Assembly: GCF_030124325.1 (NCBI RefSeq)
Contig: NZ_JASKLR010000003.1
Location: forward strand, 385,105-449,104
DNA: 64,000 bases
DNA from: Sinorhizobium sp. 8-89
GTDB lineage: Bacteria; Pseudomonadota; Alphaproteobacteria; Rhizobiales; Rhizobiaceae
Reading direction: 5' to 3'
Below, one piece after another: positions 5,440 through 23,621 of the stretch (positions are counted from its first letter, which is position 1; every line of letters starts with the position of its first letter). The notes under the pieces were generated by a model. It saw only the letters and a program-made list of their open reading frames with translations, had not been told where the DNA came from and did not search any database. The position numbers were made by a program, and so were the translations under genes.

Positions 5440-5518
5440 CGCACTTCTGCCCCGAAATCAGCCGTCCGGCGCTCCATCCCCGGAGAACGCGGCACAGCCG
5501 GTCTTCACCTTGATAAGA

Positions 5519-5533
5519 TGAGCGTTTATCTCA
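5519..5533. promoter_or_regulatory. Candidate IRO box (RirA-type, TGA-N9-TCA)
   Basis: The sequence TGAGCGTTTATCTCA matches TGA-N9-TCA, the core reported for iron-responsive operators recognised by RirA in rhizobia. It lies 80 bp upstream of the siderophore receptor start, where such a box is expected. The spacer is only loosely AT-rich, so this is a candidate. Confidence 0.4.
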
Positions 5534-5627
5534 AGTATATCGGGCGGGGCTTGTCCGGACCCGGGAAAATTGAACGATCCTGCGCAAATCTCCGCACCGC
5601 ACACGGACAATACAGGGACAATCTTCG

Positions 5628-6512
5628 TCAGGAGAGACGGCTCTTTTTCCAGAGCGCCGGCGTCGTGCCGACCGTCTTGCGGAACACGCGGGTGAAGTGT
5701 GCCTGATCGGCAAAACCTGTTTCCGCCGCCACTGTGGTCAGCGATGCGTTGTTCTCAAGCAGCATCTCTTTTGCGCGCTTGATCCGGGTATTTGTCTGCC
5801 ATTGGTGCGGCGCCATCCCTGTCGACGCCTTGAAGGCATGGCTGAAATGCGATTGCGACAAGCCGGTGAGATTCGCCAACTCTTCAAGCCGGACGTTGCG
5901 GGCGACGTTTTCGCCGATGTAGTCGATCGCGCGGCGCAGTTGCCAGGCCGCCAACTGGCTGCGTTTGCGACGGGCGCTCCGGTTGATTTTCATCAGGTCG
6001 ATGAACAGCGCCAGCGTCAGCCCGTCGCCGTAGAGGTCGTGCAGCGGTTGCGGATTGAGGCATTCGGCGGCGATCAGCTCGGCAAGCTGCAGAAAACGAG
6101 GGTCCTGAAACATCAGCCGAGGCGTCTCGACCGCGCTGGGGTCGAGATCTTCCATCAGACGGCGGCTGAGCACATCGACATCGAAATGCAGGTCGAGATG
6201 CCGCAGGTACTGGATATCGACGACATCGGTCCAGAGCTCCACGCCGGCCGGTATGTAGGAGAGGGCCTGCCGATGATAGTTCTGGACGGTGCTTCTGCCG
6301 TTAGAGGCTAGCTTGACGCGGCAATTGCCTCCGCCCCTGGCGTCGAGCACGATGAACATACGCGGATCTTCCGCGACGTAATATCCGCCGGCGTGAGGAA
6401 CGCACTCGACATCCCACACGTCGGCGACAACGCCGTTCCAATGACGCCGGTGCAGCCCGCCTATGACAGAGAAACCGCTGATCTTGTTTTGCATGCGCGG
6501 TTGAAATGTCAT
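5628..6512 (-). CDS. AraC-family transcriptional regulator next to siderophore receptor
   Basis: A 294-residue regulator. The last 100 residues hold the two helix-turn-helix motifs of the AraC family (LEELANLTGLSQSHFSHAFK and LTTVAAETGFADQAHFTRVF, followed by the conserved GTTPALW). The N-terminal 190 residues are a variable effector domain. The ATG at 6512 has GGGAA at a good distance. It lies immediately upstream of the receptor gene on the same strand (188 bp apart), like PchR-type regulators that sense the loaded siderophore and activate the receptor. That role is inferred from position. Confidence 0.88.
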   Translation of the reverse strand: MTFQPRMQNKISGFSVIGGLHRRHWNGVVADVWDVECVPHAGGYYVAEDPRMFIVLDARGGGNCRVKLASNGRSTVQNYHRQALSYIPAGVELWTDVVDIQYLRHLDLHFDVDVLSRRLMEDLDPSAVETPRLMFQDPRFLQLAELIAAECLNPQPLHDLYGDGLTLALFIDLMKINRSARRKRSQLAAWQLRRAIDYIGENVARNVRLEELANLTGLSQSHFSHAFKASTGMAPHQWQTNTRIKRAKEMLLENNASLTTVAAETGFADQAHFTRVFRKTVGTTPALWKKSRLS

Positions 6513-6635
6513 CGTCGCATTCCCGTTCGCGGGTAGGTCGGCCCGGCGTAGTGCCTAATCTTTCATTTTGTAGTCAAGTTTCCATACTGTAGGAGGTCGG
6601 GGTTTTCAATCGCGCCGATCGCGTTGCATCGCTCC

Positions 6636-6656
6636 GATTCAACGAAACATGCAGCA
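6636..6656 (-). repeat. Remnant of RIME-like element
   Basis: The stretch GATTCAACGAAACATGCAGCA matches the right arm of the first palindrome in the complete copies, but the remainder is missing. It abuts the hairpin downstream of ribH2. Confidence 0.35.
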
Positions 6657-6684
6657 GGGGCACGACCGACGCCGGTCGTGCCCC
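6657..6684 (-). terminator. Strong hairpin downstream of ribH2
   Basis: Arms of 12 bp (GGGGCACGACCG and its exact complement) surround a 4-base loop, 27 bp after the ribH2 stop. There is no good U-run on either side, so it may act as an end-stabilising hairpin or in factor-assisted termination. Confidence 0.5.
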
Positions 6685-6710
6685 TCGTTAAGACCGCAAA
6701 TGTCGCGCCG

Positions 6711-7479
<769 letters not shown>

Positions 7480-7570: not shown

Positions 7571-8632
7571 CTATTCACGGATGACGAGCAGGTCCTTGGC
7601 GGCGAAGCGCAGGGTGACGTTTTCACCCGAGACCGGCAGCGTGAGGCCGGGATCGTTGAACGTGTCGAAGGAGATGATGTCGCTGCCGACACGCAGTTTT
7701 GTCCGGATGACCGAGCCAAGGAAGCTCGTGGAGACGACTTCGCCGATAAGCGCGGTATCGCCCCTGGCGCCCTCGGCAATCGAGCCCGCTTCCGGGCGCA
7801 GTGCAAGCGAGATGCTGTCGCCGCCCTTCAGGCCAGCGATCGACTCCCTCAGCGAAATCCTCTGGCCGCCAATGGTGACTGCGCCGGCGGAGGGGTCCGC
7901 GACCTTTCCCTCGATGATGTTCAACGTACCGACAAAAGACGCGACGAAACGGGTTGCCGGCGTGTTGTAGATCTCGAAGGGTGTGCCGATCTGGTCGGCG
8001 TGGCCGGCGTTCATGACGACGATGCGGTCCGATATCGACAGCGCCTCCTCCTGGTCGTGCGTCACGAAGACGGTGGTAATGCCGAGCTGCTGCTGGATCT
8101 GCCGGATCTCTTCGCGCAGCGACACGCGGATTTTCGCGTCGAGGGCGGAGAGGGGCTCGTCGAGCAGCAGCACTTGCGGCTTGACCGCAAGCGCGCGGGC
8201 AAGCGCCACGCGTTGCTGCTGGCCGCCGGATAATTGATAGGGGAAGCGGTCCGCCAGGTGCTCGAGCTTGATGAGCCCGAGCATCTGCTTCACCCGTTGA
8301 TCAATTTCCGTTTTGGAAGCGCCCGCGACCTTGAGGCCGAAGGCGACGTTGTCGTGCACGTTCATGTTCGGGAATAGCGCATAGGCCTGAAACACCATGC
8401 CGATATTGCGCTGGTTCGGCTTCAATGAGCCCTGGTTCTTGCCGTCGATGATGACGGAGCCGTCCGACGGGCTCTCGAACCCGGCAATCATCCGCAGGAT
8501 CGTGGTCTTGCCGCAGCCGGAGGGTCCGAGAAAGGAAACGAACTCGCCCTTGTCGATGCCCATGTTGAAGTTGTGCACGACCTGAACCGGGCCGAAGGAC
8601 TTCTGGATGTTGGTCAGTGTCAGGAATGCCAT
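7571..8632 (-). CDS. ABC transporter ATP-binding protein of the island importer
   Basis: A 353-residue MalK/PotA-type ATPase. Walker A GPSGCGKTT is near residue 37, Q-loop VFQAYALFPN near 83, signature LSGGQQQRVALARA near 135, Walker B LLLDEP near 157 and H-loop THDQEEAL near 193. A C-terminal TOBE-type domain follows, ending with a conserved RFAAKDLLVI strand. Its ATG lies 4 bp after the second permease stop, so it is the last gene of a minus-strand operon of binding protein, permease, permease and ATPase. The substrate is unknown; the family handles polyamines, iron, phosphonates and related compounds. Confidence 0.93.
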   Translation of the reverse strand: MAFLTLTNIQKSFGPVQVVHNFNMGIDKGEFVSFLGPSGCGKTTILRMIAGFESPSDGSVIIDGKNQGSLKPNQRNIGMVFQAYALFPNMNVHDNVAFGLKVAGASKTEIDQRVKQMLGLIKLEHLADRFPYQLSGGQQQRVALARALAVKPQVLLLDEPLSALDAKIRVSLREEIRQIQQQLGITTVFVTHDQEEALSISDRIVVMNAGHADQIGTPFEIYNTPATRFVASFVGTLNIIEGKVADPSAGAVTIGGQRISLRESIAGLKGGDSISLALRPEAGSIAEGARGDTALIGEVVSTSFLGSVIRTKLRVGSDIISFDTFNDPGLTLPVSGENVTLRFAAKDLLVIRE

Positions 8633-8636
8633 GTGA

Positions 8637-9425
8637 TCAAGCCTTGGCCGGAGCGGATTTCTGGAAACGGGAGACGAGCTGGATCAGACCCATGCTGAGC
8701 CAGGTGATGGCAAACGCGATAACGGCGAGCGCCGAGGGCTCGTAGGCCTTGTTAGCCCCGACGAGCTGCAGGTAGGGGCCGAAGGCGGGCCGATTGAGCA
8801 GCGCGGCCATGGTGAATTCACCCATCACGATCGCGAAGGTGATGAAGGAGCCGGACAGCACGCCGCTCATCACGTTCGGGAAGATGCAGCGGAAGAGGAT
8901 CGTCGGCCATTTGGCGCCAAGGCTCTCGGCCGCTTCCGTCAGTGTCCTGACGTCGATCGCCCGCATGGCTGTATCGACCGCGCGATACATGTAGGGGAGC
9001 GATAGCGTCATGTAGGAAAACATCAACAGCGCGTTCGTTCCGGAGGTCGAGCCGGTCAGCGGCAGCATCGATGAGGAGTTGTAGAGACGCAGGTAGCCGA
9101 AGACGATGACGATCGCCGGGATGACGAGCGGCAGCAGCGTGATGAATTCGACGACCGGTCGCACCTGCGGCAGGCGCAGCCGCACCCAGTAGGCGGTCGG
9201 CACGACGAGCAACATCCCGAAGATGATGGTCAGGAGCGCCATCATCATCGAATAGCCGAAGGTTTCGCGGAACTGGATGTCGGCGAAGACCGACTGGTAG
9301 GCGTCGAAGGAATATTCGCCGCGGCGCATGCGCAGCGAGAATTCCAGGGTGCCGAGCAGCGGAATAATGAAATAGCTCGCTCCGATAGCGATGGCGATCC
9401 AGGCGCCGAGGCGTTGTGCTTTCAT
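8637..9425 (-). CDS. ABC transporter permease 2 (PotC-like)
   Basis: A 262-residue inner-membrane subunit with six hydrophobic segments and the EAA loop TEAAESLGAKWPTILFRCIFPNV that contacts the ATPase. The same frame stays open upstream to 10472, but that extension translates to Arg/Pro-rich noise over the first permease. The ATG at 9425 overlaps the preceding stop by 4 bp (ATGA), the usual coupling in such operons. The partner permease, binding protein and ATPase are all adjacent. Confidence 0.92.
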   Translation of the reverse strand: MKAQRLGAWIAIAIGASYFIIPLLGTLEFSLRMRRGEYSFDAYQSVFADIQFRETFGYSMMMALLTIIFGMLLVVPTAYWVRLRLPQVRPVVEFITLLPLVIPAIVIVFGYLRLYNSSSMLPLTGSTSGTNALLMFSYMTLSLPYMYRAVDTAMRAIDVRTLTEAAESLGAKWPTILFRCIFPNVMSGVLSGSFITFAIVMGEFTMAALLNRPAFGPYLQLVGANKAYEPSALAVIAFAITWLSMGLIQLVSRFQKSAPAKA

Positions 9426-10303
9426 TTTTGCCACCGTTCGGCGCGCATCCGCAGCCAGATGTAGAGAATGTTGGAGATGCCGGTGATGACGATCATGCCG
9501 AGCGCCAGCGCATAGCCAAGATTGGGGTTGTGCAGCACGTCGCCGCGGATCTGCGCATAGAGCAGGATCGGCACTATGTTGAGCGAACTGCCGGTAAGCG
9601 CGTAGGCCGTGGCGATTGCGCCAAAAGCGTTGGCGAAAAGCAGGAGTGTCGTGCCGAGCAGGCTCGGCCAGAGGATCGGCAGCGCCACCATGCGCCAGTA
9701 TTGCCAGGTCGAGGCGCCGAGGATCTCGGATGCCTCGCGCCATTCCTTCTTCATGCCGTCGAGCGCCGGGGTCAGGATCAGCACCATCAGCGGGATCTGG
9801 AAATACATGTAGGTGATGGTGAGGCCGAAGAAGCTCAGCAGGTTGAAGCCGGTCGAATAGAGATTGAAACCGAACCAGTCGCGCAGGAAAACCGTCACGA
9901 GGCCGGTGCGGCCAAGGGTTGCGAGAAACGCGAAGGCCAGCGGCACGCCGGCGAAATTCGAAGCGACGCCGGAGAAGGTGAGGAGGCCGGAGCGGACCCA
10001 GGTCGGCACGCCGCCGAGCACGATCGCCCAGGCAAGGAAGAAACCGATCAGCGCGCCGCCGAGCGAGGAGGCGACCGAGACCCGGATCGAGATCCAATAG
10101 GCAGAGAGAATCGAAGGCGTGAAGAGATCGGCGATGTTCTTGAAAGTGAGCTCGCCCTCGGGCGTCAGAAAGGCGCCGGTCACGAGATAGAGCGTCGGGA
10201 CGATCAGGAACATCAGCGCGAAAATCATGAACGGCGCGATGCCGAGCCAATCGATAATCGCCCGTTTGCTGATCAGGGGTGCTGCGGCTGTTGTTGTCGT
10301 CAT
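9422..10303 (-). CDS. ABC transporter permease 1 (PotB-like)
   Basis: A 293-residue inner-membrane protein with about six membrane segments and the EAA-type loop REASEILGASTWQYWRMVALPILWP. It forms the translocation path with the permease gene that overlaps its 3' end by 4 bp. The start follows the binding-protein gene stop by 71 bp. Family members import polyamines, 2-aminoethylphosphonate, iron or related small solutes. Confidence 0.92.
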   Translation of the reverse strand: MTTTTAAAPLISKRAIIDWLGIAPFMIFALMFLIVPTLYLVTGAFLTPEGELTFKNIADLFTPSILSAYWISIRVSVASSLGGALIGFFLAWAIVLGGVPTWVRSGLLTFSGVASNFAGVPLAFAFLATLGRTGLVTVFLRDWFGFNLYSTGFNLLSFFGLTITYMYFQIPLMVLILTPALDGMKKEWREASEILGASTWQYWRMVALPILWPSLLGTTLLLFANAFGAIATAYALTGSSLNIVPILLYAQIRGDVLHNPNLGYALALGMIVITGISNILYIWLRMRAERWQK

Positions 10304-10374
10304 CGCGTTTCGGCTGTCCCGGCGTCAAAGGAAGCCTCCCCGCCGCGCGTGCGGAGGGGAGGCCGATCTTGCGG

Positions 10375-11478
10375 TTACTGTACGTTGGCGCCGACGACGC
10401 TATCCCACTTGGTGGTGATTGCCGTCTTTCCGGCTTCCTGCTCTTCAAGCGTCGGGAAGACAGCCTTCTCATAGGCTGCTGCCGGCGGCAGCTTGTCGAG
10501 CATTTCCTGCGGGATCTTGCCGTTCTTGGCGAGATCGTTGAAGCGGATCGGGTGGCAATAGCCCTTCAGCCAGCCGAGCTGGCCCTCGTCCGAATAGAGG
10601 TATTCCATCCAGAGCTTCGCTGCGTTCGGATGCGGAGCGAAGGCCGAGATTGCCTGGACGTAGACGCCGGCGACGACGCCCGAAGCCGGAACCACGACTT
10701 CGACCGGCGGGTTGCCGTTCAGGCTGTCGCGCCAGGAGAGACCGTTATAGTCCCAGGCGATGATGATCGGGGTCGAGCCTTGCGCCAGCGAGGCGGACTT
10801 GCCGATGACCGGAACGAAGTTGCCGGCCTTGTTGACCTCGGCGAAGAAGGCGAGACCAGCTTCGCCGGCCTTGGCAGCATCTTTTTCACCGGCAGCGAGA
10901 CCGGCTGCATAGACGGCCTGCACGGCCTGGTTGGACGCGCGCGGATCGCCGGCGAGCGCGACCGCGTTCGCATAGTCCGACTTCTTGAGGTCGGCCCAGT
11001 CCTTCGGCACGTCCTTGACGATGTCGGTGTTCACCACGAACGACAGAACGCCGTAATAATCGCCATACCAGTAACCGTCGGCGTCCTTGGCGCTGTCCGG
11101 GATCGTGTCCCAGGTCGAGACCTTGTAGGGCTGGATCAGGCCTTCGGCCTTCGCCGACGGACCGAAGGAGAGACCGACGTCGATCACGTCGGGTGCCTGC
11201 GGGCCGGTGTTGCCCTTGTTGGCCTTGATCGCTTCGATTTCGTCACCCGAACCGGCGTCCGGGTTCAGTTCGTTGACTTCGATGCCGTACTTGGCCTTGA
11301 AGCCGGCAATGACGTCGCCGTAACCGCACCAGGTGTGCGGGAGCGCGATCGTGGTCAGCGTGCCTTCCTTCTTGGCGGCGGCGATAAGCTCCTCGCTCGG
11401 CTCGGCGACGGCGATCGCCGACGTTGCGAGCAGCATGGCGGTGGAAAGCGAGAGCAGGCGTTGAGTCTTTGAAATCAC
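10375..11478 (-). CDS. Periplasmic solute-binding protein of the island ABC importer
   Basis: A 367-residue secreted receptor with a signal peptide (LLSLSTAMLLATSAIAVAEP). It belongs to the extracellular solute-binding proteins that serve PotD/AfuA-like importers, with the block APDVIDVGLSFGPSAKAEGL after the first lobe and the hinge GVLSFVVNTDIV. The start codon is GTG at 11478, fixed by AAGGAGAAC seven bases upstream. It is the first structural gene of the importer and lies 178 bp after the RpiR-type regulator on the same strand. The ligand cannot be told from sequence; the catabolic genes across the regulator suggest an amine or amino alcohol. Confidence 0.9.
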   Translation of the reverse strand: MISKTQRLLSLSTAMLLATSAIAVAEPSEELIAAAKKEGTLTTIALPHTWCGYGDVIAGFKAKYGIEVNELNPDAGSGDEIEAIKANKGNTGPQAPDVIDVGLSFGPSAKAEGLIQPYKVSTWDTIPDSAKDADGYWYGDYYGVLSFVVNTDIVKDVPKDWADLKKSDYANAVALAGDPRASNQAVQAVYAAGLAAGEKDAAKAGEAGLAFFAEVNKAGNFVPVIGKSASLAQGSTPIIIAWDYNGLSWRDSLNGNPPVEVVVPASGVVAGVYVQAISAFAPHPNAAKLWMEYLYSDEGQLGWLKGYCHPIRFNDLAKNGKIPQEMLDKLPPAAAYEKAVFPTLEEQEAGKTAITTKWDSVVGANVQ

Positions 11479-11656
11479 TGACGTTCTCCTTATGTGCTTT
11501 CGTTCGTTGTAATTTCGGCGATGCTGTTAATGAGACGCGATGAAACCTGTGTGACACGCTCTGTCCCGTTCGCGCCATGCGTGTCGGTCACTGGACGGCG
11601 GTCGCCTCGATTTGCACCGCAGCCGTTAGCTTGGTCCATAAACAGCCGGTTCCTCC

Positions 11657-12583
11657 CTAGACCGGCCTGCGAAAGATGCGCGTCGAATCGAACAGGCCTT
11701 CAAGCATCTTCATCCGGTCCCGTGTGTCGTCCCAGTTCATGTTCTGCACGGCCTCGATCAGCGCCTCGACGAGAAAGAGCAGCATCACCGAACTATCCCA
11801 GGCCGAGGGTGCTTCGATCTGCACGCGAAAGACCTTGGAAGAGGACTTGGCGACCGGCGAACCCCACTGGTCGGTGAAGAGAACGATTTCGACGCCCCGA
11901 TCACGGGCGAAGCGGGCAAGCGTTTCCATCTCCTGTTCGTACCGGCGGATATCGAACAGGATCAGAACGTCGCCCTGCTTCATGTCCAAGACGTAGTGCG
12001 GCCAGGAGCTCGGGTTGGCGGCGATCTGCGTCACGCCGGTGCGGATGACCTGGAGATGGGTGAAGAAGTAGTCCGCCATCGAGCGGGTGATACGCCCGCC
12101 GGCAAGATAGATATTGCGCTTGCTATCGGCGATCAGGGTGGCGGTTTGGTCGAATTCGCGCGGTTCTATCTGGGACAGCGTCTGGCGCATGTTTCCCATG
12201 ACCGCGTCGGCGAACCGGTTCAGCGTGTGCGTGCCGGGGGCGCTGGCGGCCCAGCGATCATGCTTGGCGATCGGATTGGAAATCGTCGCCTCGAGCTCCT
12301 GGTGCAGCCTTGACTGAAAGTCCGGAAATCCGCGGAAACCCAGCTTCTGGACCATGCGCGCCACGGTTGGCGTCGAAACGCCGGCGTTCTCGGCGACCGT
12401 AGTGATCGAACCGAGCCCGGAGACTGGATAGTTGTCGAGGAGTGTCTCCGCCAATCGCTTCTCGGCGCGCGTCAGCGCCGCGAAATGTGCGTTGATCACA
12501 TCCGACACCGTCATGGATGCCGCTTTGCTGCTCAATGTCGTGCCCCTGAACTGGTCTGTGCCAGCTTGTGACGAATTAAACAT
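11657..12583 (-). CDS. RpiR-family transcriptional regulator (HTH_6 + SIS)
   Basis: A 308-residue repressor or activator of the RpiR family. The N-terminal helix-turn-helix includes ITTVAENAGVSTPTVARMVQKLGFRGFPDF. A SIS domain follows, with LIADSKRNIYLAGGRITRSMADYF. SIS domains in this family usually bind phosphosugars, though several relatives control amine or polyol pathways. The frame is open to 12799, but the ATG at 12583 gives the family's usual length; an internal ATG 23 codons in is an alternative. It lies between the ABC operon, transcribed the same way, and the divergent catabolic operon, so it probably controls both. Confidence 0.88.
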   Translation of the reverse strand: MFNSSQAGTDQFRGTTLSSKAASMTVSDVINAHFAALTRAEKRLAETLLDNYPVSGLGSITTVAENAGVSTPTVARMVQKLGFRGFPDFQSRLHQELEATISNPIAKHDRWAASAPGTHTLNRFADAVMGNMRQTLSQIEPREFDQTATLIADSKRNIYLAGGRITRSMADYFFTHLQVIRTGVTQIAANPSSWPHYVLDMKQGDVLILFDIRRYEQEMETLARFARDRGVEIVLFTDQWGSPVAKSSSKVFRVQIEAPSAWDSSVMLLFLVEALIEAVQNMNWDDTRDRMKMLEGLFDSTRIFRRPV

Positions 12584-12613
12584 CGCTGTCACAATCGGAG
12601 TCAATCTGCTTTT

Positions 12614-12629
12614 TGAAGAGATCGTTTCA
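12614..12629. promoter_or_regulatory. Candidate RpiR operator, site 1
   Basis: TGAAGAGATCGTTTCA is an inverted repeat TGAA-N8-TTCA placed between the divergent regulator and catabolic operon. It shares the pattern TGAAGA-N4-xTTTCA with a second site exactly 42 bp downstream, about four helical turns. Confidence 0.5.
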
Positions 12630-12637
12630 GATTTTCG

Positions 12638-12666
12638 TTGACACTCTCTGATTCGTGAAGAATTCT
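12638..12666 (+). promoter_or_regulatory. Predicted promoter of the catabolic operon
   Basis: A perfect TTGACA (12638-12643) is followed after 17 bases by AATTCT (12661-12666), a weak -10. The second operator-like repeat covers the -10, which fits repression by the adjacent RpiR-type regulator. Confidence 0.45.
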
Positions 12667-12671
12667 TTTCA
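12656..12671. promoter_or_regulatory. Candidate RpiR operator, site 2
   Basis: TGAAGAATTCTTTTCA is the second TGAA-N8-TTCA repeat; its core AAGAATTCTT is a perfect palindrome. It overlaps the -10 of the predicted promoter of the catabolic operon. Confidence 0.5.
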
Positions 12672-12700
12672 TCAAGATCGTCTGACGAGGCAATTTGGGG

Positions 12701-13483
12701 GTGCCGGTTTTGACGGGACTTTTGACGCAGGCAGAGGGCGATCCGGTCGCCATCGACAATGCCGACGGGAAGGGAGAGTTTCTCTTCGTCTGCGAGCACG
12801 CGTCGCGCCGCCTGCCGGAGCGCCTGGGGACGCTCGGCCTTTCAAAAGAAGCACTGGAGAGCCACATCGCCTGGGACCCCGGCGCGCTGACGGTCGCCAG
12901 GCATCTTGCCGAGAGGCTCGATGGCGCGCTCATCCATCAACGCTTTTCTCGCCTTGCCTATGACTGCAACCGGCCGCCCGAGTCCGACGCGGCGATGCCG
13001 GCGGTCAGCGAAATTTACGAGGTGCCGGGCAACAAGGCGATGTCGGCTGCCGAACGTCAGGCAAGGGTGCAGGAAATTTACCTGCCGTTTCGTGATGCCG
13101 TGGGGCGGTTCGTGTCCGAGCGCAAGGCCGCCGGGCGGCGCCTCATCCTTGTCACCATGCACAGTTTCACGCCCGTTTATTTCGGCAACCCGCGCGCCGT
13201 CGAAATCGGCATCCTGCACGATGCCGACAGCCGGCTTGCCGACCGCATGCTTGAGATCGCGACTGATGGGGAGGTCGCCTACGATATCCGCCGGAACGAG
13301 CCCTATGGACCGGCGGATGGTGTCACCCACAGTCTGGTGGAGTACGGCGTGCGAAACGGACTGCCGAACGTGATGATCGAGATCAGAAACGATCTCATTC
13401 GCGACGAGATTAGCCAGAGGGTCATGGCTGATTATCTGGAGGGGCTCCTCGCAAAGAGCGCGGCCGCCCTTCCAGCACGATAA
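12701..13483 (+). CDS. N-formylglutamate amidohydrolase family protein
   Basis: A 260-residue zinc hydrolase of the family that includes HutG2 (N-formylglutamate to formate plus glutamate). The block FLFVCEHASRRLPE with its conserved His, IAWDPGA, and the segment LVTMHSFTPV with a conserved His are all present. GTG at 12701 and TTG at 12695 are both possible starts after ACGAGG. No histidine-utilisation genes are nearby. Instead it leads an operon with a TRAP importer and a glutamine-synthetase-like ligase, so it may hydrolyse a gamma-glutamyl or N-acyl intermediate made by that ligase. This substrate is inference. Confidence 0.87.
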   Translation: MPVLTGLLTQAEGDPVAIDNADGKGEFLFVCEHASRRLPERLGTLGLSKEALESHIAWDPGALTVARHLAERLDGALIHQRFSRLAYDCNRPPESDAAMPAVSEIYEVPGNKAMSAAERQARVQEIYLPFRDAVGRFVSERKAAGRRLILVTMHSFTPVYFGNPRAVEIGILHDADSRLADRMLEIATDGEVAYDIRRNEPYGPADGVTHSLVEYGVRNGLPNVMIEIRNDLIRDEISQRVMADYLEGLLAKSAAALPAR

Positions 13484-13615
13484 GAAGACCCTGGGGAGCG
13501 GCAAAGCCGCGGTGGTGATCATGAACAGGAGCAAGACAGCCAATGCTTGGATCGGCAGCAAGGGGAGGCGCGTTTCCTCGGCCGGATAACCCACACCCTC
13601 GGCAGGGGCGCCACC

Positions 13616-14125
13616 ATGCCTGAATATTTGAAGACATATGTCCGCGTCGTCGATGGGTTCAATCGACACGTCGGCAGAGCGACCATGTATCTTATCTTCG
13701 CGATGATGGGCATCCTGCTCTATTCATCGGTATCGAAAGCATGGCTCCTACCCTCGCTCTGGACGCTCGAAATGGCGCAGTTCGTGATGGCCGCCTACTA
13801 TCTCCTTGGTGGCGCCTATTCGCTGCAACTCAACAGTCATGTGCGCATGGACCTGCTCTATGGACGCTGGACGTTGCGAACGCGTGCGGCCGTCGACGCC
13901 GTAACCATCACCATGCTATTCGTCTACTTGGCCTTCCTGCTTTTTGGCGGCGTTTCCAGCACAGCCTATGCGCTGAAATACGGAGAGACGAGCTACTCGA
14001 GCTGGGCGCCCTACATGGCTCCCATCAAGATCATCATGACGATCGGCGTCGCGCTCACTCTCCTTCAGGCGACATCCATCTTCATCAAGGACTTGGCTCT
14101 GGCGATGGGGAGACCGATCGTATGA
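13616..14125 (+). CDS. TRAP transporter small permease (DctQ type)
   Basis: A 169-residue inner-membrane protein with four hydrophobic segments, of the DctQ family. TRAP importers use an ion gradient and a periplasmic receptor to take up organic acids or related solutes. The ATG at 13616 is preceded by AGGGGC; an open frame from 13547 has no good start signal. Its stop overlaps the start of the large permease by 4 bp. Members of the family commonly show the motif seen here around the second segment, SLWTLEMAQFVMAAYYLLGG. Confidence 0.9.
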   Translation: MPEYLKTYVRVVDGFNRHVGRATMYLIFAMMGILLYSSVSKAWLLPSLWTLEMAQFVMAAYYLLGGAYSLQLNSHVRMDLLYGRWTLRTRAAVDAVTITMLFVYLAFLLFGGVSSTAYALKYGETSYSSWAPYMAPIKIIMTIGVALTLLQATSIFIKDLALAMGRPIV

Positions 14126-15447
14126 GCTATGAACTGATCGCCTTCATGATGTTCTCGTCCATGATGATGACCATGCTTACCGGCCAGCGCGTTTTTGCTG
14201 CCATCGGTGTCGTCGGAGTGGTCTCCGCTGCCTTCCTCTGGGGTAATGGCGGCTTCGAAATGGCCTTCGCCGCCTCGATGAAACTGATGAAGTGGTATCC
14301 GCTCCTGACGCTGCCGCTCTTCATTTTCATGGGGTACATGCTGTCGGAGTCCGGCATCGCCGAGGATCTCTATAAGATGTTCCATGTCTGGATGGGGGGC
14401 TTACGCGGCGGGCTCGCACTCGGCACCATCGGATTGATGGTCATCATTTCGGCTATGAACGGGCTGAGCGTCGCCGGAATGGCGATCGGCGCGACGATCG
14501 CGCTGCCCGAGCTTTTGCGCCGCGGCTACGACAAGATCATGGTTTCCGGCGTCATTCAGGCGGGCAGTTCGCTCGGCATTCTGGTTCCGCCGAGCGTCGT
14601 GCTTGTGCTCTACGGCATGATTGCACGTCAGCCGGTCGGCCAGCTCTGGCTCGCGGGCGTTTTCCCGGGTTTGCTGCTGGCGTTGCTGTTTTCCATCTAC
14701 GTGGTCATCCGCTGCAAGATTCAGCCTCATCTGGGACCGGCGTTGCCAAAGGAGGAACGCAACATCCCGCTGGCCGAGAAGCTTAAGCTGCTGCGGGCCG
14801 GCATCCTGCCCTTCATGATCTTCTTCCTGATGATGGGCCTTTTCGTCATGGGCGTTACGAGCCTGGTCGAAAGCTCGGCGGTGGGGGCGATTTCGGCGCT
14901 TGCCGCTGCGTGGTGGAAGGGTCGCCTGACATGGACCGTGTTCGACAAAACGATCGAGCAGACGCTCGGGATATCCTGCATGTTTATGTGGATCATTCTG
15001 GCGGCGCTTTGCTTCGGAGCAGTTTTCGATGGCCTCGGCGCCGTCAAGGCCATCGAATATCTGTTCCTGGAGAAATGGGGTCTGGGCCCCTGGGAAGTGC
15101 TGATCCTGATGCAAATTTCCTATTTGATCATGGGCACGTTTCTCGACGATACGGCCATGCTCGTGATTGTTGCGCCGCTCTACATCCCGCTTGTCGGCAG
15201 CCTCGGTTTCGACCTCATCTGGTATGGCGTCCTTTATACGATCACTTGCCAGATCGCCTACATGACCCCGCCCTTTGGATACAACCTGTTCCTAATGAGG
15301 GCCATGGCGCCGCCCGAGATATCGCTGATCGACATCTACAAGTCCGTGTTCCCCTTTGTTGCGGTGATGATCGTAGGACTAGCGATCGTGACGGCTTTCC
15401 CGGAGATCGCGCTTTGGCTTCCGCAGAACGTTTATGTGAGAGGGTGA
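14122..15447 (+). CDS. TRAP transporter large permease (DctM type)
   Basis: A 441-residue polytopic protein, the main ion-coupled channel of a TRAP importer. It has about twelve hydrophobic segments and typical DctM blocks such as LPLFIFMGYMLSESGIAEDL, SSLGILVPPSVVLVLYGMIA and GTFLDDTAMLVIVAPLYIP. The ATG at 14122 overlaps the DctQ-type gene stop, which fixes the start; the frame is open further upstream but reads as noise there. The receptor gene follows 96 bp downstream. Confidence 0.94.
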   Translation: MSYELIAFMMFSSMMMTMLTGQRVFAAIGVVGVVSAAFLWGNGGFEMAFAASMKLMKWYPLLTLPLFIFMGYMLSESGIAEDLYKMFHVWMGGLRGGLALGTIGLMVIISAMNGLSVAGMAIGATIALPELLRRGYDKIMVSGVIQAGSSLGILVPPSVVLVLYGMIARQPVGQLWLAGVFPGLLLALLFSIYVVIRCKIQPHLGPALPKEERNIPLAEKLKLLRAGILPFMIFFLMMGLFVMGVTSLVESSAVGAISALAAAWWKGRLTWTVFDKTIEQTLGISCMFMWIILAALCFGAVFDGLGAVKAIEYLFLEKWGLGPWEVLILMQISYLIMGTFLDDTAMLVIVAPLYIPLVGSLGFDLIWYGVLYTITCQIAYMTPPFGYNLFLMRAMAPPEISLIDIYKSVFPFVAVMIVGLAIVTAFPEIALWLPQNVYVRG

Positions 15448-15543
15448 CAGGACAGGCCGGAAGAGACTTCTCCGCACGGCGTTTCGCGGAGACAAAGTAA
15501 AATAAGGAATGCTTCTTCAACAAAGACAGAGGGAAACAAGACG

Positions 15544-16593
15544 ATGACCAACAGACGCGATTTCCTGAGGAAAGCCGGGCTCGCCGCGGCAGCCGGAACA
15601 ACTGCGCTTTCAGCGCCTGCCGTGCGCGCACAGTCCCGTAAGATCACTTGGCGCCTGCAGACCTATGCCGGCCCCGCACTGGCCGAGCACGTAATCAAGC
15701 CGGCGATCGATGCGTTCAACAAGGCGGCCAACGGCGAAATGCAGATCGACCTCTACACCGCCGACCAGCTCGTTCCGACGGGCGAACTCTTCCGCGCGAT
15801 GCAGGCGGGCACTATCGATGCCGTGCAGAGCGACGACGACTCGATGGCCTCGCCAGTCGACATCAAGGTCTTCGGCGGCTACTTCCCCTTCGCCTCGCGC
15901 TACAGCCTCGACGTGCCGACGTTATTCCATCAATACGGCCTCAACGAAATCTGGGCCGAAGCCTACGGCGAGGTCGAAGGCGTCACCTGGCTTTCCGCCG
16001 GATCGTGGGATCCGTGCAACTTTGCCACGGTTAAGCCGATCAAGACATTGGCCGACCTCAAGGGGCTGCGTGTCTTCACGTTCCCGACGGCCGGCAAGTT
16101 CCTCACGCGCTTCGGGGTCGTGCCGGTGACACTGCCTTGGGAAGACGTGCAGGTTGCCATGCAGACGGGCGAACTCGACGGTCTCGCCTGGTCGGGCATT
16201 ACTGAAGACTACACTGTCGGTTGGGCAGACGTGACCAAGTACTTCCTGACGAACAATATTTCGGGTGCCTGGTGCGGTTCGTTCTTCGCGAACTCCGCGC
16301 GCTGGAAGGAAGTACCCGAACATCTGCAGACGCTTTTCCGTCTCTGCATCGATTCCTCGCACTACTACCGCCAGCATTGGTATTGGGGCGGCGAGGCCAA
16401 ATTGCGCGCCGAAGGAACGAAGCTCGAGTTGACAACCATTCCTGACGAGGAATGGAAGACAGTCGAGGAAGAGGCGCTCAAATTCTGGGACGAAATTGCC
16501 GCCACCAGCCCGCGCGCCGCGAAAGTCGTCGACATCCTGAAGAAATACCGCGCGACAATGGAAAAGGCAGGCCCGCCTTATCGCTACGGCTAA
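15544..16593 (+). CDS. TRAP transporter substrate-binding protein (DctP family, Tat signal)
   Basis: A 349-residue periplasmic receptor. The N-terminus NRRDFLRKAGLAAAAG is a twin-arginine-type signal (RRDFL), cleaved after AVRAQ, so it is exported folded. The conserved Arg-containing ligand block near GLRVFTFPTAGKFLTRFG and the segment GELDGLAWSGITED are typical of DctP receptors for carboxylates. The ligand probably carries a carboxylate, bound by the conserved Arg, although some relatives bind neutral compounds. The next gene begins 100 bp downstream. Confidence 0.92.
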   Translation: MTNRRDFLRKAGLAAAAGTTALSAPAVRAQSRKITWRLQTYAGPALAEHVIKPAIDAFNKAANGEMQIDLYTADQLVPTGELFRAMQAGTIDAVQSDDDSMASPVDIKVFGGYFPFASRYSLDVPTLFHQYGLNEIWAEAYGEVEGVTWLSAGSWDPCNFATVKPIKTLADLKGLRVFTFPTAGKFLTRFGVVPVTLPWEDVQVAMQTGELDGLAWSGITEDYTVGWADVTKYFLTNNISGAWCGSFFANSARWKEVPEHLQTLFRLCIDSSHYYRQHWYWGGEAKLRAEGTKLELTTIPDEEWKTVEEEALKFWDEIAATSPRAAKVVDILKKYRATMEKAGPPYRYG

Positions 16594-16693
16594 TTGGCGG
16601 CTCGCCTCCCAATTCGCATCCGGTGCCGGGGGGCCGGCCCGGATGCAGATCGACTAACTCAAACCGGCGCGATGCCGGAACCAGGACTTTTCC

Positions 16694-18064
16694 ATGACCG
16701 CCAAGTACACTTTCGACGACCTGAAGAAAGACGTGGCCGAAGGCCACATCGACACCGTGCTCGCCTGCCAGGTGGACATGCAGGGCCGCCTGATGGGCAA
16801 GCGCTTCCATGCGGAATATTTCGTCGAAAGCGCGTGGAAGGAAACGCATAGCTGTAACTATCTGCTTGCGACCGACATGGAGATGGAAACGGTCTCCGGC
16901 TACAAGGCGACGAGCTGGGAGAAGGGCTACGGCGACTATACGATGAAGCCGGACCTTGCGACGCTCCGGCGCATCCCGTGGCTGGAAGGCACGGCGCTGG
17001 TCATCTGCGACGTGCTCGATCACCACACGCACGAAGAGGTGCCGCATTCGCCCCGCGCCATCCTCAAGAAGCAGATTGCACGCCTCGAGGCCATGGGTCT
17101 GAAGGCTTTAATGGCGAGCGAGCTCGAATTCTTCCTCTTTGACCAATCTTATGACGACGCACGCCAGTCCGGCTATCGCGACCTGCAGCTCGCCAGCGGC
17201 TACAACGAGGATTACCATATCTTCCAGACGACCAAGGAAGAGGATGTGATGCGGGCGATCCGCAACGGCCTTCAGGGCGCCGACATCCCGGTAGAGAATT
17301 CCAAGGGTGAGGCTTCTGCCGGTCAGGAAGAAATCAACGTCCGCTACGCCGATGCGCTCGCCATGGCCGACCGCCATGCGATCATCAAGAACGGCTGCAA
17401 GGAAATCGCCTGGCAGCGCGGCAAGGCCGTCACCTTCCTCGCTAAGTGGAACTATTCGGCTGCCGGCTCGTCCTCGCATATCCATCAGTCGCTCTGGAGT
17501 GCCGATGGCGAGACGCCGCTCTTCTTCGACAAGAGCGCGCGTCACGGCATGTCCGAGCTGATGCGGCATTACGTGGCCGGCCTTCTGACCCATGCGAGCG
17601 AGATCACCTATTTCCTTGCGCCTTACATCAACTCCTACAAGCGTTTCATGGCCGGTACCTTCGCGCCGACCAAGGCGATCTGGAGCAAGGACAACCGCAC
17701 CGCCGGCTATCGCCTTTGCGGCGAAGACACCAAATCGATCCGCATCGAATGCCGCGTCGGAGGTTCCGACCTCAATCCATACCTTGCCTTTGCCGCTTTG
17801 ATCACGGCCGGGATATCCGGTATCGAAGGCAAGATGGAACTCGAAGCGCCCTTCGTCGGCGATGCCTATCACGGCAAGGACATACGCGAGATCCCGCAAA
17901 CGCTGAGGGATGCGACCGAGGCATTGACCGGCTCGAAAATGCTGCGCGCCGCCTTCGGCGACGATGTGATCGACCATTACACCCGCGCGGCGCGGTGGGA
18001 GCAGGAGGAATATGACCGACGCGTAACCGATTGGGAGGTCGCGCGCGGTTTCGAACGGGCATAA
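16694..18064 (+). CDS. Glutamine-synthetase-like ligase (gamma-glutamylpolyamine/amide synthetase, PuuA-type)
   Basis: A 456-residue member of the glutamine synthetase superfamily. The catalytic block LMASELEFFLF, the metal and glutamate site SSSHIHQSLW, and the RVGGSDLNPYLAFAA C-terminal block are intact. It lacks the adenylylation-loop context of GlnA and is nearer the PuuA/IpuC/GlnT group, which makes gamma-glutamyl amides of amines. In this operon it would attach glutamate to an imported amine so that its other end can be oxidised safely. The actual amine cannot be read from sequence. An unusual 180-bp gap follows before the aldehyde dehydrogenase. Confidence 0.88.
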   Translation: MTAKYTFDDLKKDVAEGHIDTVLACQVDMQGRLMGKRFHAEYFVESAWKETHSCNYLLATDMEMETVSGYKATSWEKGYGDYTMKPDLATLRRIPWLEGTALVICDVLDHHTHEEVPHSPRAILKKQIARLEAMGLKALMASELEFFLFDQSYDDARQSGYRDLQLASGYNEDYHIFQTTKEEDVMRAIRNGLQGADIPVENSKGEASAGQEEINVRYADALAMADRHAIIKNGCKEIAWQRGKAVTFLAKWNYSAAGSSSHIHQSLWSADGETPLFFDKSARHGMSELMRHYVAGLLTHASEITYFLAPYINSYKRFMAGTFAPTKAIWSKDNRTAGYRLCGEDTKSIRIECRVGGSDLNPYLAFAALITAGISGIEGKMELEAPFVGDAYHGKDIREIPQTLRDATEALTGSKMLRAAFGDDVIDHYTRAARWEQEEYDRRVTDWEVARGFERA

Positions 18065-18084
18065 GAAATTCTCCTTCCCATCCC

Positions 18085-18215
18085 TTCGCCACAAGGGGGA
18101 GAGGCTTCCCCCGGACAGCCTTCTCACTCAATCTGGGCTGTTGCCAGCTGCGGGGGCCGAATCGGGGCCGGACGGTAACGCCAGCGAGCCCGTCCCTCTT
18201 GTGGGGAGGGGACAG
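18085..18215. repeat. Inverted-repeat-rich spacer inside the catabolic operon
   Basis: The left end has CCACAAGGGGGAGAGG and the right end CCTCTTGTGGGGAGG, complementary over about 12 bases with mismatches. Sequences of the CCCTTCGCCACAAGGGGGAG kind are common intergenic palindromes in rhizobial genomes, as I recall. It is bounded by the stop of the ligase and the start of the dehydrogenase and may be a mobile or mRNA-stabilising unit. Confidence 0.35.
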
Positions 18216-18244
18216 TCAATTGAAATGAAAACAGGATGACGATC

Positions 18245-19630
18245 ATGACGATGATCAAATGCATTTCCCCGGTAAACGGCGAGCTCTACGCCGAGCGCCC
18301 CGCAATGCCGCTGGAACTCGCCAGGCAGGCCGTGGCCCATGCGCGTCTGGCGCAGAAAAACTGGGCAAAGCGGCCGGTCGAAGAGCGGGTCAAGCTGGTG
18401 CTCGCCGGCGTCGCGCGACTCAACGAGATGGTCGACGAAGTGGTGCCAGAGCTTGCCTGGCAGATGGGCCGGCCGGTGCGGTACGGCGGCGAGTTCAAGG
18501 GCTTCAACGAGCGTTCGAACTATGTCGCCTCCATCGCCGCCGATGCGCTGAAACCGATTGTCGTCGAAGAGAGCGATCGCTTCGAGCGGCGCATCGAGCG
18601 CGAGCCGCATGGTGTCGTCTTCGTCATCGCGCCGTGGAACTACCCTTACATGACGGCGATCAACACGGTCGCCCCGGCGTTGATGGCCGGCAACACGGTC
18701 ATCATCAAGCATGCGAGCCAGACGATCCTTGTCGGCGAGCGTATGGTGCGGGCCTTCATCGAGGCGGGCGTGCCGGCGGACGTGTTTCAGAACCTCTTCC
18801 TCGATCACGAGACGACGGCGGCGCTGATTGCGGCGAAGAGCTTCGACTTCATCAACTTCACCGGCTCGGTTGAAGGCGGGCGCTCGATCGAGCGGGCGGC
18901 GGCTGGCACCTTTACTGGACTCGGCCTCGAACTCGGCGGCAAGGATCCCGGCTATGTGATGGAAGATGCGGACCTCGACGCCGCCGTCGATACACTGATG
19001 GACGGCGCGACCTACAATTCCGGCCAGTGCTGCTGCGGCATCGAGCGCATCTATGTGCATGAAACGCTCTACGACGCCTTCGTCGAAAAATCCGTCGCCT
19101 GGGTCTCCAACTACAAGCTCGGCAACCCGCTCGATACGGAAACGACGCTCGGACCCATGGCCAACAAGCGCTTCGCCGCCACGGTTCGCCAGCAGGTCGC
19201 CGATGCGGTGTCGAAGGGTGCCAAGGCGCTGATCGACCCCAAGCTCTTCCCGCAGGATGACGGTGGCGCCTATCTCGCGCCGCAGGTTCTCGTCGACGTC
19301 GATCATTCGATGGAGTTCATGCGCGAGGAAACGTTTGGGCCGGCGGTCGGCATCATGAAGGTGAAAAGCGACGCAGAAGCGATCGAACTGATGAACGATT
19401 GCCAGTATGGCTTGACCGTTTCGCTCTGGACAAAGGACGCCGAGCGCGCCTCCCGCATCGGCCGTGATCTTGAGACCGGCACCGTCTTCATGAACCGCGC
19501 CGATTATCTCGACCCGGCGCTCTGCTGGACGGGTGTCAAGGAAACGGGCCGTGGCGGCTCGCTTTCGATTCTCGGCTTCCACAATCTCACTCGCCCGAAA
19601 TCCTATCATCTGAAGAAAGTAACCGCATGA
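18245..19630 (+). CDS. NAD(P)-dependent aldehyde dehydrogenase
   Basis: This enzyme oxidises an aldehyde to the carboxylate with NAD(P)+. The 461-residue product has the cofactor region VIAPWNYPYMTAINTVAPAL, the catalytic Glu block LELGGKDPGYV and the nucleophile block YNSGQCCCGIERIYVHE, with Cys at the middle of three consecutive cysteines. The ATG at 18245 has AGGA eight bases upstream; ATGs at 18236 and 18251 are alternatives. Its stop overlaps the next ATG by 4 bp, so it is translationally coupled to the alcohol dehydrogenase. In the pathway proposed here it would take the aldehyde made by that enzyme to the acid. Confidence 0.93.
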   Translation: MTMIKCISPVNGELYAERPAMPLELARQAVAHARLAQKNWAKRPVEERVKLVLAGVARLNEMVDEVVPELAWQMGRPVRYGGEFKGFNERSNYVASIAADALKPIVVEESDRFERRIEREPHGVVFVIAPWNYPYMTAINTVAPALMAGNTVIIKHASQTILVGERMVRAFIEAGVPADVFQNLFLDHETTAALIAAKSFDFINFTGSVEGGRSIERAAAGTFTGLGLELGGKDPGYVMEDADLDAAVDTLMDGATYNSGQCCCGIERIYVHETLYDAFVEKSVAWVSNYKLGNPLDTETTLGPMANKRFAATVRQQVADAVSKGAKALIDPKLFPQDDGGAYLAPQVLVDVDHSMEFMREETFGPAVGIMKVKSDAEAIELMNDCQYGLTVSLWTKDAERASRIGRDLETGTVFMNRADYLDPALCWTGVKETGRGGSLSILGFHNLTRPKSYHLKKVTA

Positions 19631-20772
19631 CGATTACCGCCAACTGGAGCTATCCGACCGCCGTCACGTTCGGTGCGGGCCGGATCAAGGAGCTTGCCGA
19701 CCATTGCAGGGCCCTCGGCATGAGGAAGCCGCTGCTCGTGACCGATCGTGGCCTTGCGCCGATGGCGATCACGCAGAATGCGCTCGATATCCTGGAAGCA
19801 GGCGGCCTTGGCCGCGCCATCTTCGCCGATGTCGATCCGAACCCGAACGACAAGAATCTGGAAGCAGGCGTGAAGGCGTTTAAGGACGGCGGCCATGATG
19901 GCGTCGTTGCCTTCGGCGGTGGCTCCGGCCTCGATCTCGGCAAGTGCGTCGCCTTCATGGTCGGCCAGATGCGGCCGGTCTGGGATTTCGAGGATATCGG
20001 CGACTGGTGGACACGCGCGAGCGTCGAAGGCATCGCACCGATCGTTGCGGTGCCGACGACCGCCGGCACCGGTTCTGAGGTCGGTCGCGCCAGCGTCATC
20101 ACCAATTCGGCAAGCCATGTGAAGAAGGTGATCTTCCACCCGAAGTTCCTGCCGGGCGTGACGATCTGCGATCCGGAACTGACCGTCGGCATGCCGAAGG
20201 TCATCACCGCCGGCACCGGCATGGACGCCTTCGCTCATTGCCTGGAGGCCTATTCCTCGCCCTTCTATCATCCGATGTCGGCGGGCATCGCGCTCGAAGG
20301 CATGCGGCTCGTCAAGGAATATCTGCCGCGCGCCTACAAGGACGGCACTGATATCGAGGCGCGCGCCCACATGATGAGTGCTGCCGCGATGGGCGCCGTC
20401 GCCTTCCAGAAGGGGCTCGGCGCGATCCATTCCCTCTCCCATCCGGTCGGCGCGATCTACAACACCCACCACGGCATGACCAATGCCGTCGTGATGCCGC
20501 CAGTGCTGCGCTTCAACCGCCCGGCGATCGAGGACAAGATCGCGCGTGCAGCCGCCTATCTCGGCATTGCCGGAGGCTTCGACGGATTTTATGACTACGT
20601 CTTGAAGTTGCGCGAAGAGCTCGGCGTGCCGGACAAACTTTCCACACTCGGCGTCGGCACCGATCGCATCGATGAAATGTCGGAAATGGCGATCGTCGAC
20701 CCGACCGCCGGCGGCAACCCGGTGGAGCTGACCCTCGACGCAGCGAAAAAACTGTTCAGAGAAAGCATTTGA
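19627..20772 (+). CDS. Iron-containing alcohol dehydrogenase
   Basis: A 381-residue group III alcohol dehydrogenase (NAD(P)+, Fe2+). The nucleotide site GGGSGLDLGK, the DPELTVGMPKVITAGTGMDAFAH block and the metal block GAIHSLSHPVGAIYNTHHG with its histidines are intact. It is the last gene of the island, overlapping the aldehyde dehydrogenase stop by 4 bp and followed by a clear terminator. Its presence points to a hydroxyl group on the substrate, for instance a gamma-glutamyl amino alcohol. Confidence 0.94.
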   Translation: MTITANWSYPTAVTFGAGRIKELADHCRALGMRKPLLVTDRGLAPMAITQNALDILEAGGLGRAIFADVDPNPNDKNLEAGVKAFKDGGHDGVVAFGGGSGLDLGKCVAFMVGQMRPVWDFEDIGDWWTRASVEGIAPIVAVPTTAGTGSEVGRASVITNSASHVKKVIFHPKFLPGVTICDPELTVGMPKVITAGTGMDAFAHCLEAYSSPFYHPMSAGIALEGMRLVKEYLPRAYKDGTDIEARAHMMSAAAMGAVAFQKGLGAIHSLSHPVGAIYNTHHGMTNAVVMPPVLRFNRPAIEDKIARAAAYLGIAGGFDGFYDYVLKLREELGVPDKLSTLGVGTDRIDEMSEMAIVDPTAGGNPVELTLDAAKKLFRESI

Positions 20773-20830: not shown

Positions 20831-20966
20831 TGATGTGCGGCGCTGCGGTTAATCTTTGCACCCCAAAGTTTCCATTTCGTTAACCATCTTCTGAAAGGCT
20901 TTGTTAAGGGCCCGCCTGCTGACGCATCGGTCGGAGCCTCGAAACAATGACGGAATGAGGTGGAAG

Positions 20967-21686
20967 ATGGCGGTCATCACATTTGCCAACGCAAAAGGCG
21001 GTGCCGGCAAGACGACGGCGGCACTGATCCTGTCGACGGAACTGGCGAGACAGGGCAACAGGGTGGTGGTGCTCGACGCGGACCCGCAGCGCTGGATCAC
21101 GCGCTGGTCGGAAGTCTCCGGCCATGTCTCCAATCTCGAAGTGATCTCGCATATCACGCCCGCGTCGCTGCCCTGCCACATCCGTGAACTGAAAGACGCG
21201 GCTGATTTCATCATTATCGACCTCGCCGGCGCCAAGGATGCGATCGTCGCGCTGGCGCTGGGCCTGTCCGATCAGGTGCTGATCCCGGTCCAGGGCTGCG
21301 CAATGGACGCGCAAGGGGCTGTTCAGATCCTGGAATTGATCCGCCATATCGAACAAAAGACAACGGCTCGCATCAAGCATTCGGTCGTGCTCACGCGGGT
21401 TAACTCGCTGGTGACCACACGTGCGCTCCAGGCGATCAAGACGCTGCTTGCTTCACGCAACGTTTCGATGCTCGACACCCCGATCGTCGAACGCGCCGCC
21501 TATCGCGAGATTTTCGAATGCGGCGGAACGCTGCAGACGATGGATGCGGGCCGCGTCAGCAATCTCGACAAGGCGCGCGAGAATGCCCTTGCGCTCGCTC
21601 AGGAGGTTCTGGCGCTCCTGCCCGTTTGCTATCAGCGGTCCTGGGCTGCGCGGGTGCCGTCCTGGGCGCGGTTGCGCGCCGCCTAG
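20967..21686 (+). CDS. ParA/VirC1-like P-loop ATPase, orphan
   Basis: A 239-residue ParA-superfamily ATPase with deviant Walker A KGGAGKTT at about residues 10-17 (NAKGGAGKTTAALILSTELA), Walker A' LDADPQRW and Walker B DFIIIDLAG. The closest shape I know is VirC1 and the short ParA proteins of conjugative regions rather than chromosomal ParA or MinD. There is no ParB partner or centromere-like repeat beside it. The ATG at 20967 has GAGGTGGAAG upstream; the frame opens at 20901 with other possible starts. It may be a leftover of an integrated plasmid or a locus-specific positioning protein. Confidence 0.85.
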   Translation: MAVITFANAKGGAGKTTAALILSTELARQGNRVVVLDADPQRWITRWSEVSGHVSNLEVISHITPASLPCHIRELKDAADFIIIDLAGAKDAIVALALGLSDQVLIPVQGCAMDAQGAVQILELIRHIEQKTTARIKHSVVLTRVNSLVTTRALQAIKTLLASRNVSMLDTPIVERAAYREIFECGGTLQTMDAGRVSNLDKARENALALAQEVLALLPVCYQRSWAARVPSWARLRAA

Positions 21687-23369: not shown

Positions 23370-23621
23370 TGCGGACATTCCTTATCTTCGGAGCGGATGT
23401 GGAAGGCGTAGCGTGTCCGCCCATCCTGCGCCGACCGATCGTGATGGAAAATACTTCGTCAGTGATAGAACCATTGCCGCAAAGTTTTTCATGACAATGT
23501 TTCATGAGGTCATGAAGGCGCGCAATACCGAATGGCCGCCGCAGAAGCGTTCAGGATCGATTGCGGCGCCGTGAAAAACGGGAGCGCCCGCTTGGCCGGA
23601 GGCGCAAGCGCCGGGTCCGGA

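Follow-up and report, generated by a model that had tools for sequence, protein, structure and literature searches.

A 64,000-nucleotide stretch of the 7.06 Mb genome of Sinorhizobium sp. 8-89 (the window) holds a plus-strand operon that very probably serves the catabolism of ethanolamine via gamma-glutamylation. Beyond its divergent RpiR-type regulator lies an ATP-binding cassette (ABC) importer. The core pathway is already described and is not new, because the same gene set in the same order forms the ethanolamine operon of Phaeobacter sp. MED193 (PMC10132767). That operon, MED193_10021-10056, has the order RpiR-GGAH-EtoVWX-ETAGA-GAADDH-GETADH and encodes an RpiR regulator, a gamma-glutamylglycine amidohydrolase, the importer proteins EtoV, EtoW and EtoX, an ethanolamine gamma-glutamylase, an aldehyde dehydrogenase (ALDH) and a gamma-glutamylethanolamide dehydrogenase. 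Five of the operon's proteins were shown to rise on phosphorylethanolamine, and its EtoX to bind ethanolamine with a dissociation constant (Kd) of 7.9 uM. Its authors linked the operon to the Chromohalobacter and Agrobacterium work of Vetting et al. (PMC10132767).

An earlier note on this DNA, made from the sequence alone, had proposed a gamma-glutamyl route with an oxidation from alcohol to aldehyde to acid, acting on an amino alcohol such as ethanolamine, and knew of no described pathway with this set. The route and the likely substrate agree with the steps assigned to the MED193 operon, the affinity of its receptor and the response of its proteins. The supposed novelty does not hold, since the pathway is described in Phaeobacter (PMC10132767) and a parallel one was proposed for Streptomyces (PMC6529630). 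Replacing an unknown pathway by a known one provides named substrates and tests for a ligase carried by 110 of the 151 genomes surveyed from the family to which the window belongs. The basis of this reading is gene content, orthology, synteny, a kept ligand glutamate and a kept operator-like site; from these we infer the enzyme steps, the role of the regulator and the substrate of the ABC system in this strain.

A very probable operon for ethanolamine glutamylation

All genes named in the earlier note were found to be open reading frames with family matches far above chance. Domains were assigned by a Pfam profile scan and by NCBIfam curated cut-offs, with the iron alcohol dehydrogenase (Fe-ADH) scanned against NCBIfam only. 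The plus strand begins with an amidohydrolase of the N-formylglutamate amidohydrolase (FGase) family (12761..13483; PF05013, 2.4e-43), whose start is uncertain and lies somewhere between 12695 and 12761. It is followed by a tripartite ATP-independent periplasmic (TRAP) importer, composed of a small permease DctQ of the EtoV type (13616..14125; PF04290, 1.2e-15), a large permease DctM of the EtoW type (14122..15447; PF06808, 3.1e-66) and a receptor DctP of the ethanolamine-binding EtoX type (15544..16593; DctP, 8.6e-22). The starts of DctQ and DctM are probably at 13616 and 14122. The operon continues with a glutamine synthetase (GS)-like ligase of the ethanolamine gamma-glutamylase type (16694..18064; Gln-synt_C, 4.3e-101), an ALDH (18236..19630; PF00171 (Aldedh), 1.3e-119) and the Fe-ADH (19627..20772). 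With the RpiR gene adjoining the amidohydrolase gene and a TRAP receptor of the same family, gene set and order match those of MED193. No ABC importer appears in the legend of the MED193 operon (PMC10132767), whereas the window has one beyond RpiR.

Each product can be given a putative role by comparison with MED193. The TRAP system would import ethanolamine, which the GS-like ligase would join, with ATP, to the gamma-carboxyl of glutamate. The Fe-ADH is probably the gamma-glutamylethanolamide dehydrogenase that yields the aldehyde, and the ALDH probably converts this gamma-glutamyl-aminoacetaldehyde to gamma-glutamylglycine. The amidohydrolase, which matches Atu2144 (2odf) at 1.3e-85, is probably the hydrolase that would release glutamate and glycine from gamma-glutamylglycine.

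A link to the substrate comes from the TRAP receptor, an ortholog of Csal_0678 of Chromohalobacter salexigens (phmmer, 2.4e-161 to 4uab/4xf5), which belongs to another class of bacteria. The AlphaFold model of the receptor has a mean predicted local distance difference test (pLDDT) score of 69. It matches 4xf5 and 4uab with Z scores of 31.1 and 31.0 and a root-mean-square deviation of 2.9 over 301 and 300 residues, at 66% identity over the structural alignment, and the next fold entry follows at Z 26.6 (fold matches are the Foldseek top 1000, where absence of a family excludes nothing). The 4UAB structure of Csal_0678 was solved with ethanolamine, whose amine and hydroxyl are coordinated by Glu220 (PMC12410723). 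This residue aligns to E221 of the window receptor, which is invariant in 23 aligned orthologs. TRAP systems mostly carry acids (PMC4646407, PMC5812351), and ethanolamine is an unusual cargo for them. Csal_0678 has been reported to be without the arginine of the carboxylate-binding TRAP type (PMC4646407). In our alignment the stretch RVFTFPTAG, which may or may not cover the Arg-147 column, is identical in Csal_0678 and the window receptor.

The ligase matches 5dm3 and 11zs at 3.1e-203 among PDB sequences, with the next match at 3.2e-50, and is 97% identical to the ligase of Sinorhizobium psoraleae. We take 5dm3 to be Csal_0679, the neighbor of Csal_0678. The earlier note had called the ligase PuuA-like. 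Its GS-like nature stands, and the likeness to PuuA is loose, with 200.6 bits against a cut-off of 650 for the PuuA model (GGputSyn, NF045547). The Puu pathway of putrescine also ligates, oxidizes and then hydrolyzes, and is in this sense alike in overall logic; neither PuuB nor PuuD is present in the window operon. That the gene encodes an ordinary ammonia-assimilating glutamine synthetase is suggested by its Gln-synt_C domain and is hardly credible in view of its scores and residues. It falls below the cut-offs for type I/GlnA (TIGR00653, 259.7 of 429.15 bits) and type III (TIGR03105, 239.7 of 469.6 bits). The best Gln-synt_C match of the same genome carries FDGSS and VPGYEAP, positions that we take to be part of the ammonium site, with the ammonium-site glutamate presumably in the latter. 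The window ligase has unlike residues there, with MAGTFAP in place of VPGYEAP, and its F323 is invariant in 23 orthologs. If the ammonium site is placed correctly, these changes would fit an amine substrate.

Several observations weigh against ethanolamine as the substrate. The ligase, ALDH and Fe-ADH all score below the NCBIfam cut-offs for any named model. For the Fe-ADH the closest model is that of a 4-hydroxybutyrate dehydrogenase (6.4e-105, 351 of 500 bits), and for the ALDH it is a succinic semialdehyde model. These matches would leave room for another amino alcohol or amine, such as L-alaninol, 3-aminopropanol or isopropylamine; the earlier note had suggested alaninol beside ethanolamine. 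The entry 4xf5, which we take to be the Csal_0678 receptor with 2-amino-1-propanol, is also counted on that side. Such a substrate is nevertheless very unlikely. Some loci have an ethanolamine-permease-like protein where the window has the TRAP system, ethanolamine is bound with a Kd of 7.9 uM in this receptor family, and the Phaeobacter operon rises on phosphorylethanolamine (PMC10132767).

Ethanolamine catabolism has been connected to other enzyme sets. In the GlnA4 ethanolamine pathway of Streptomyces coelicolor, a last step by a protein of the formylglutamate amidohydrolase family was proposed (PMC6529630). The proposed chemistry is that of the window, a likeness of descriptions rather than of sequences, and the dehydrogenase of that cluster is annotated as short-chain, whereas that of the window is an Fe-ADH. 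The ethanolamine ammonia-lyase EutBC shares the substrate of the window operon, with unrelated enzymes, and the ligase occurs together with an EutB match above 600 bits in just 4 of the 151 family genomes. The window genome itself has an EutB match of 472 bits in an 804-codon open frame (contig C3:166799-168094); other EutB matches are stronger (641-728 bits), and three further family matches are also of this long-frame kind.

Regulation

The divergent RpiR-type regulator (11657..12583, minus strand; PF01418 (HTH_6), 2.2e-16; PF01380 (SIS), 2.9e-20) is predicted to act at a palindrome-like site in the gap before the amidohydrolase gene. The operator-like site TGAAGAATTCTTTTCA is found there without mismatch at 12656..12671 (plus strand), and a weaker second copy with 3 mismatches lies at 12614..12629 (plus strand). 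The two copies are 42 bases apart, and 2 matches compare with 0.26 expected, a number reached in 3 of 100 shuffles. With up to 2 mismatches, the site was present in 41 of 63 RpiR-FGase gaps and in 0 of 1260 shuffled gaps, a count that is descriptive because the site was chosen for being common in these gaps.

Distribution of the operon and exchange of importers

The ligase orthogroup was found in 42 of 385 alphaproteobacterial genomes, the window's own included, with a sharp boundary (51-78% identity, next match 44%). Among the other 41 loci, Fe-ADH was found in 31, ALDH in 22, DctP in 12, DctM in 11, the amidohydrolase in 10 and RpiR in 10, all of them lower bounds owing to crude open reading frame picking and to loci cut by contig ends. 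These counts suggest that the ligase and the dehydrogenases are a stable core and that the rest is variable outside the family. The ABC receptor stood beside the ligase in none of these 41 loci, few of which are from near relatives.

A scan of named genomes covered 80 loci, which are weighted to Rhizobiaceae because they are the best of at least 590. Of these, 65 had at least 9 kb on each side and are treated as long loci; the 15 with less were left out. Within the long loci, the amidohydrolase was present in 60, RpiR in 58, ALDH in 61, Fe-ADH in 60 and the ABC system in 40. An importer usually lies between the amidohydrolase and the ligase. No more than 4.5 kb from the ligase start, 17 long loci had a TRAP system, 39 an amino acid-polyamine-organocation (APC)-type permease, 9 neither and 0 both. 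The permeases were of two kinds, 30 like the APC-type permease of S. psoraleae and 9 ethanolamine-permease-like, and two separate permease matches were found in 0 of the best 80 loci. The permeases of loci L115 and L154 reached 359.4 and 374.1 bits against the ethanolamine permease model TIGR00908, below but near its cut-off of 381.75. TRAP and permease are exchanged even inside the genus, since S. psoraleae has its permease at the position of the TRAP system in the window. The whole or partial operon was also seen in a Neptunomonas, where the order differs with TRAP before the amidohydrolase, and in a bin labeled Thiothrix.

The adjacent ABC importer

The earlier note had placed a complete ABC importer on the minus strand, with RpiR between it and the plus-strand operon, and this layout is found at 7571-11478. 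Beyond RpiR follow the periplasmic receptor (10375..11478; PF13343 (SBP_bac_6), 1.4e-25), permease 1 (9422..10303; PF00528, 2e-05 and 24.8 bits, just under the Pfam cut-off of 26.4, with a CysT-type model at 1.4e-16), permease 2 (8637..9425; PF00528, 5.7e-09) and the ATPase (7571..8632; PF00005 (ABC_tran), 2.8e-37; TOBE_2, 3e-09). As judged from synteny, this importer adjoining the operon most likely serves the same pathway. Its cargo is somewhat more probably ethanolamine or a close relative than any other, and the system would then be a further importer, probably the second, for the operon.

Gene positions across the family carry this proposal. In the survey of 151 family genomes, 110 carried the ligase, 85 the ABC receptor and 74 EtoX; the ABC count leaves out two matches of 34-35% identity (G410 and G510) and four other weak or second matches. 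Ligase and ABC receptor were both present in 67 genomes and lay no more than 12 kb apart in 62 of them. These 62 comprise 27 divergent upstream arrangements, as in the window, 32 downstream arrangements on the same strand and 3 others. In the downstream layout the ABC genes are 1.3 to 5.6 kb from the ligase, often 2.8-3.1 kb, and in one such case (L227) the ABC receptor directly follows the ligase, ALDH and Fe-ADH. A control gene at 22080-23378 lay 12 kb or less from the ligase in only 8 of the 40 genomes holding both, the 8 with the highest identity. This control (minus strand) encodes a flavin adenine dinucleotide (FAD) oxidoreductase nearest the L-pipecolate oxidase AmaA, at 443 bits with a cut-off of 600. 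On a tree of 57 of the 95 known receptors, with third-layout carriers near the ligase (G447, G526) labeled as other, the upstream label takes 3 changes to explain, as does the downstream label, and well-supported branches enforce them. A functional tie would predict such repeated placement near the ligase in varying layouts.

A number of results weigh against this role. The three changes on the tree may reflect one gain and two losses. The ligase is absent from 18 of the 85 family genomes with the ABC receptor and from all 10 carriers sampled outside the family, 8 of which are also without EutB, and outside the family other neighbors occur, such as a PehA-like hydrolase or a class V aminotransferase. 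As described above, the class survey found no ABC receptor beside the ligase. The operator-like site, allowing up to 3 mismatches, was found in 0 of 41 gaps between ABC receptor and RpiR; transcription of the ABC genes by read-through from the RpiR promoter is possible. Finally, another importer accompanies the ABC system in each of the 40 long loci that have it.

The missing ligases and the missing site would be expected if the ABC importer were unrelated to the pathway and a neighbor by inherited gene order alone. We regard this as unlikely, given that 62 of 67 genomes have the importer close to the ligase and that its two main layouts imply several rearrangements when placed on the receptor tree. 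The presence of another importer in every long ABC locus would also suit an importer of a different but linked compound, for instance phosphoethanolamine, glycerophosphoethanolamine or 2-aminoethylphosphonate. In its favor, the ABC receptor is nearest, weakly, to 2-aminoethylphosphonate receptor models and the ATPase nearest to PhnT2, and in three genomes outside the family (L209-L211) the ABC genes are near a PehA-like phosphoric/sulfuric ester hydrolase. Against the models of the 2-aminoethylphosphonate importer (PhnSTUV, PhnT2), however, the receptor scores 65.9 of 310 bits and the ATPase 411.9 of 457.7, and the window operon contains no phosphonate or phosphodiester gene. A linked compound as cargo is unlikely. 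The same three genomes, which belong to one family, carry two ABC receptor genes in tandem.

The structure of the ABC receptor was also considered. Its model has a pLDDT of 84 and best matches 5t1p (Z 37.0), a putative receptor whose ligand is unnamed, followed by metal-citrate, sugar phosphate, polyamine and iron receptors. These predicted fold neighbors are of no help with the substrate.

Uptake of ethanolamine or a close relative thus remains the preferred role. A wider proposal, on which we are evenly divided, is that the ABC system represents a family of ABC importers for ethanolamine that has so far gone undescribed, is common in Rhizobiaceae and was recruited to the glutamylation operon on several occasions, each time in its own layout or in one of a few. 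With TRAP and the two kinds of APC-type permease counted in, one catabolic operon would be served by four different importers. A literature search, with most subscription papers outside its reach, returned no description of a rhizobial ABC ethanolamine importer. Among the 110 ligase carriers, 33 have ABC and TRAP, 34 ABC only, 40 TRAP only and 3 neither, which is suggestive of exchange and of little weight, given the relatedness of the genomes and the permeases found in ABC-only loci. Should ethanolamine be the cargo of the ABC system, rhizobia would possess an ATP-driven uptake route for a product of membrane lipids that the cited papers assign to TRAP and permease importers, and an unassigned transporter present in 85 of 151 family genomes could be annotated.

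Two further connections of the ABC system were considered and rejected. EutB was present in 16 of 18 ligase-free ABC carriers (Fisher, 5.8e-06, 41 ligase-free genomes). This link is not specific, because the control gene gave 13 of 13 and the genomes free of both ligase and EutB include small ones without much else. The ABC genes were not found to adjoin EutB in general, and in one genome (G426) about 9 kb lie between them. A guess that SMc01963-SMc01966 of Sinorhizobium meliloti are the same ABC system was dropped without a sequence test; the gene order given in PMC2912261 differs.

Neighboring genes

Directly 3' of the catabolic operon, a ParA/VirC1-like ATPase is encoded at 20952-21686 on the plus strand. 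Beyond the ABC genes, the region 3214-7184 holds a TonB receptor, an AraC regulator and a lumazine-synthase-like gene.

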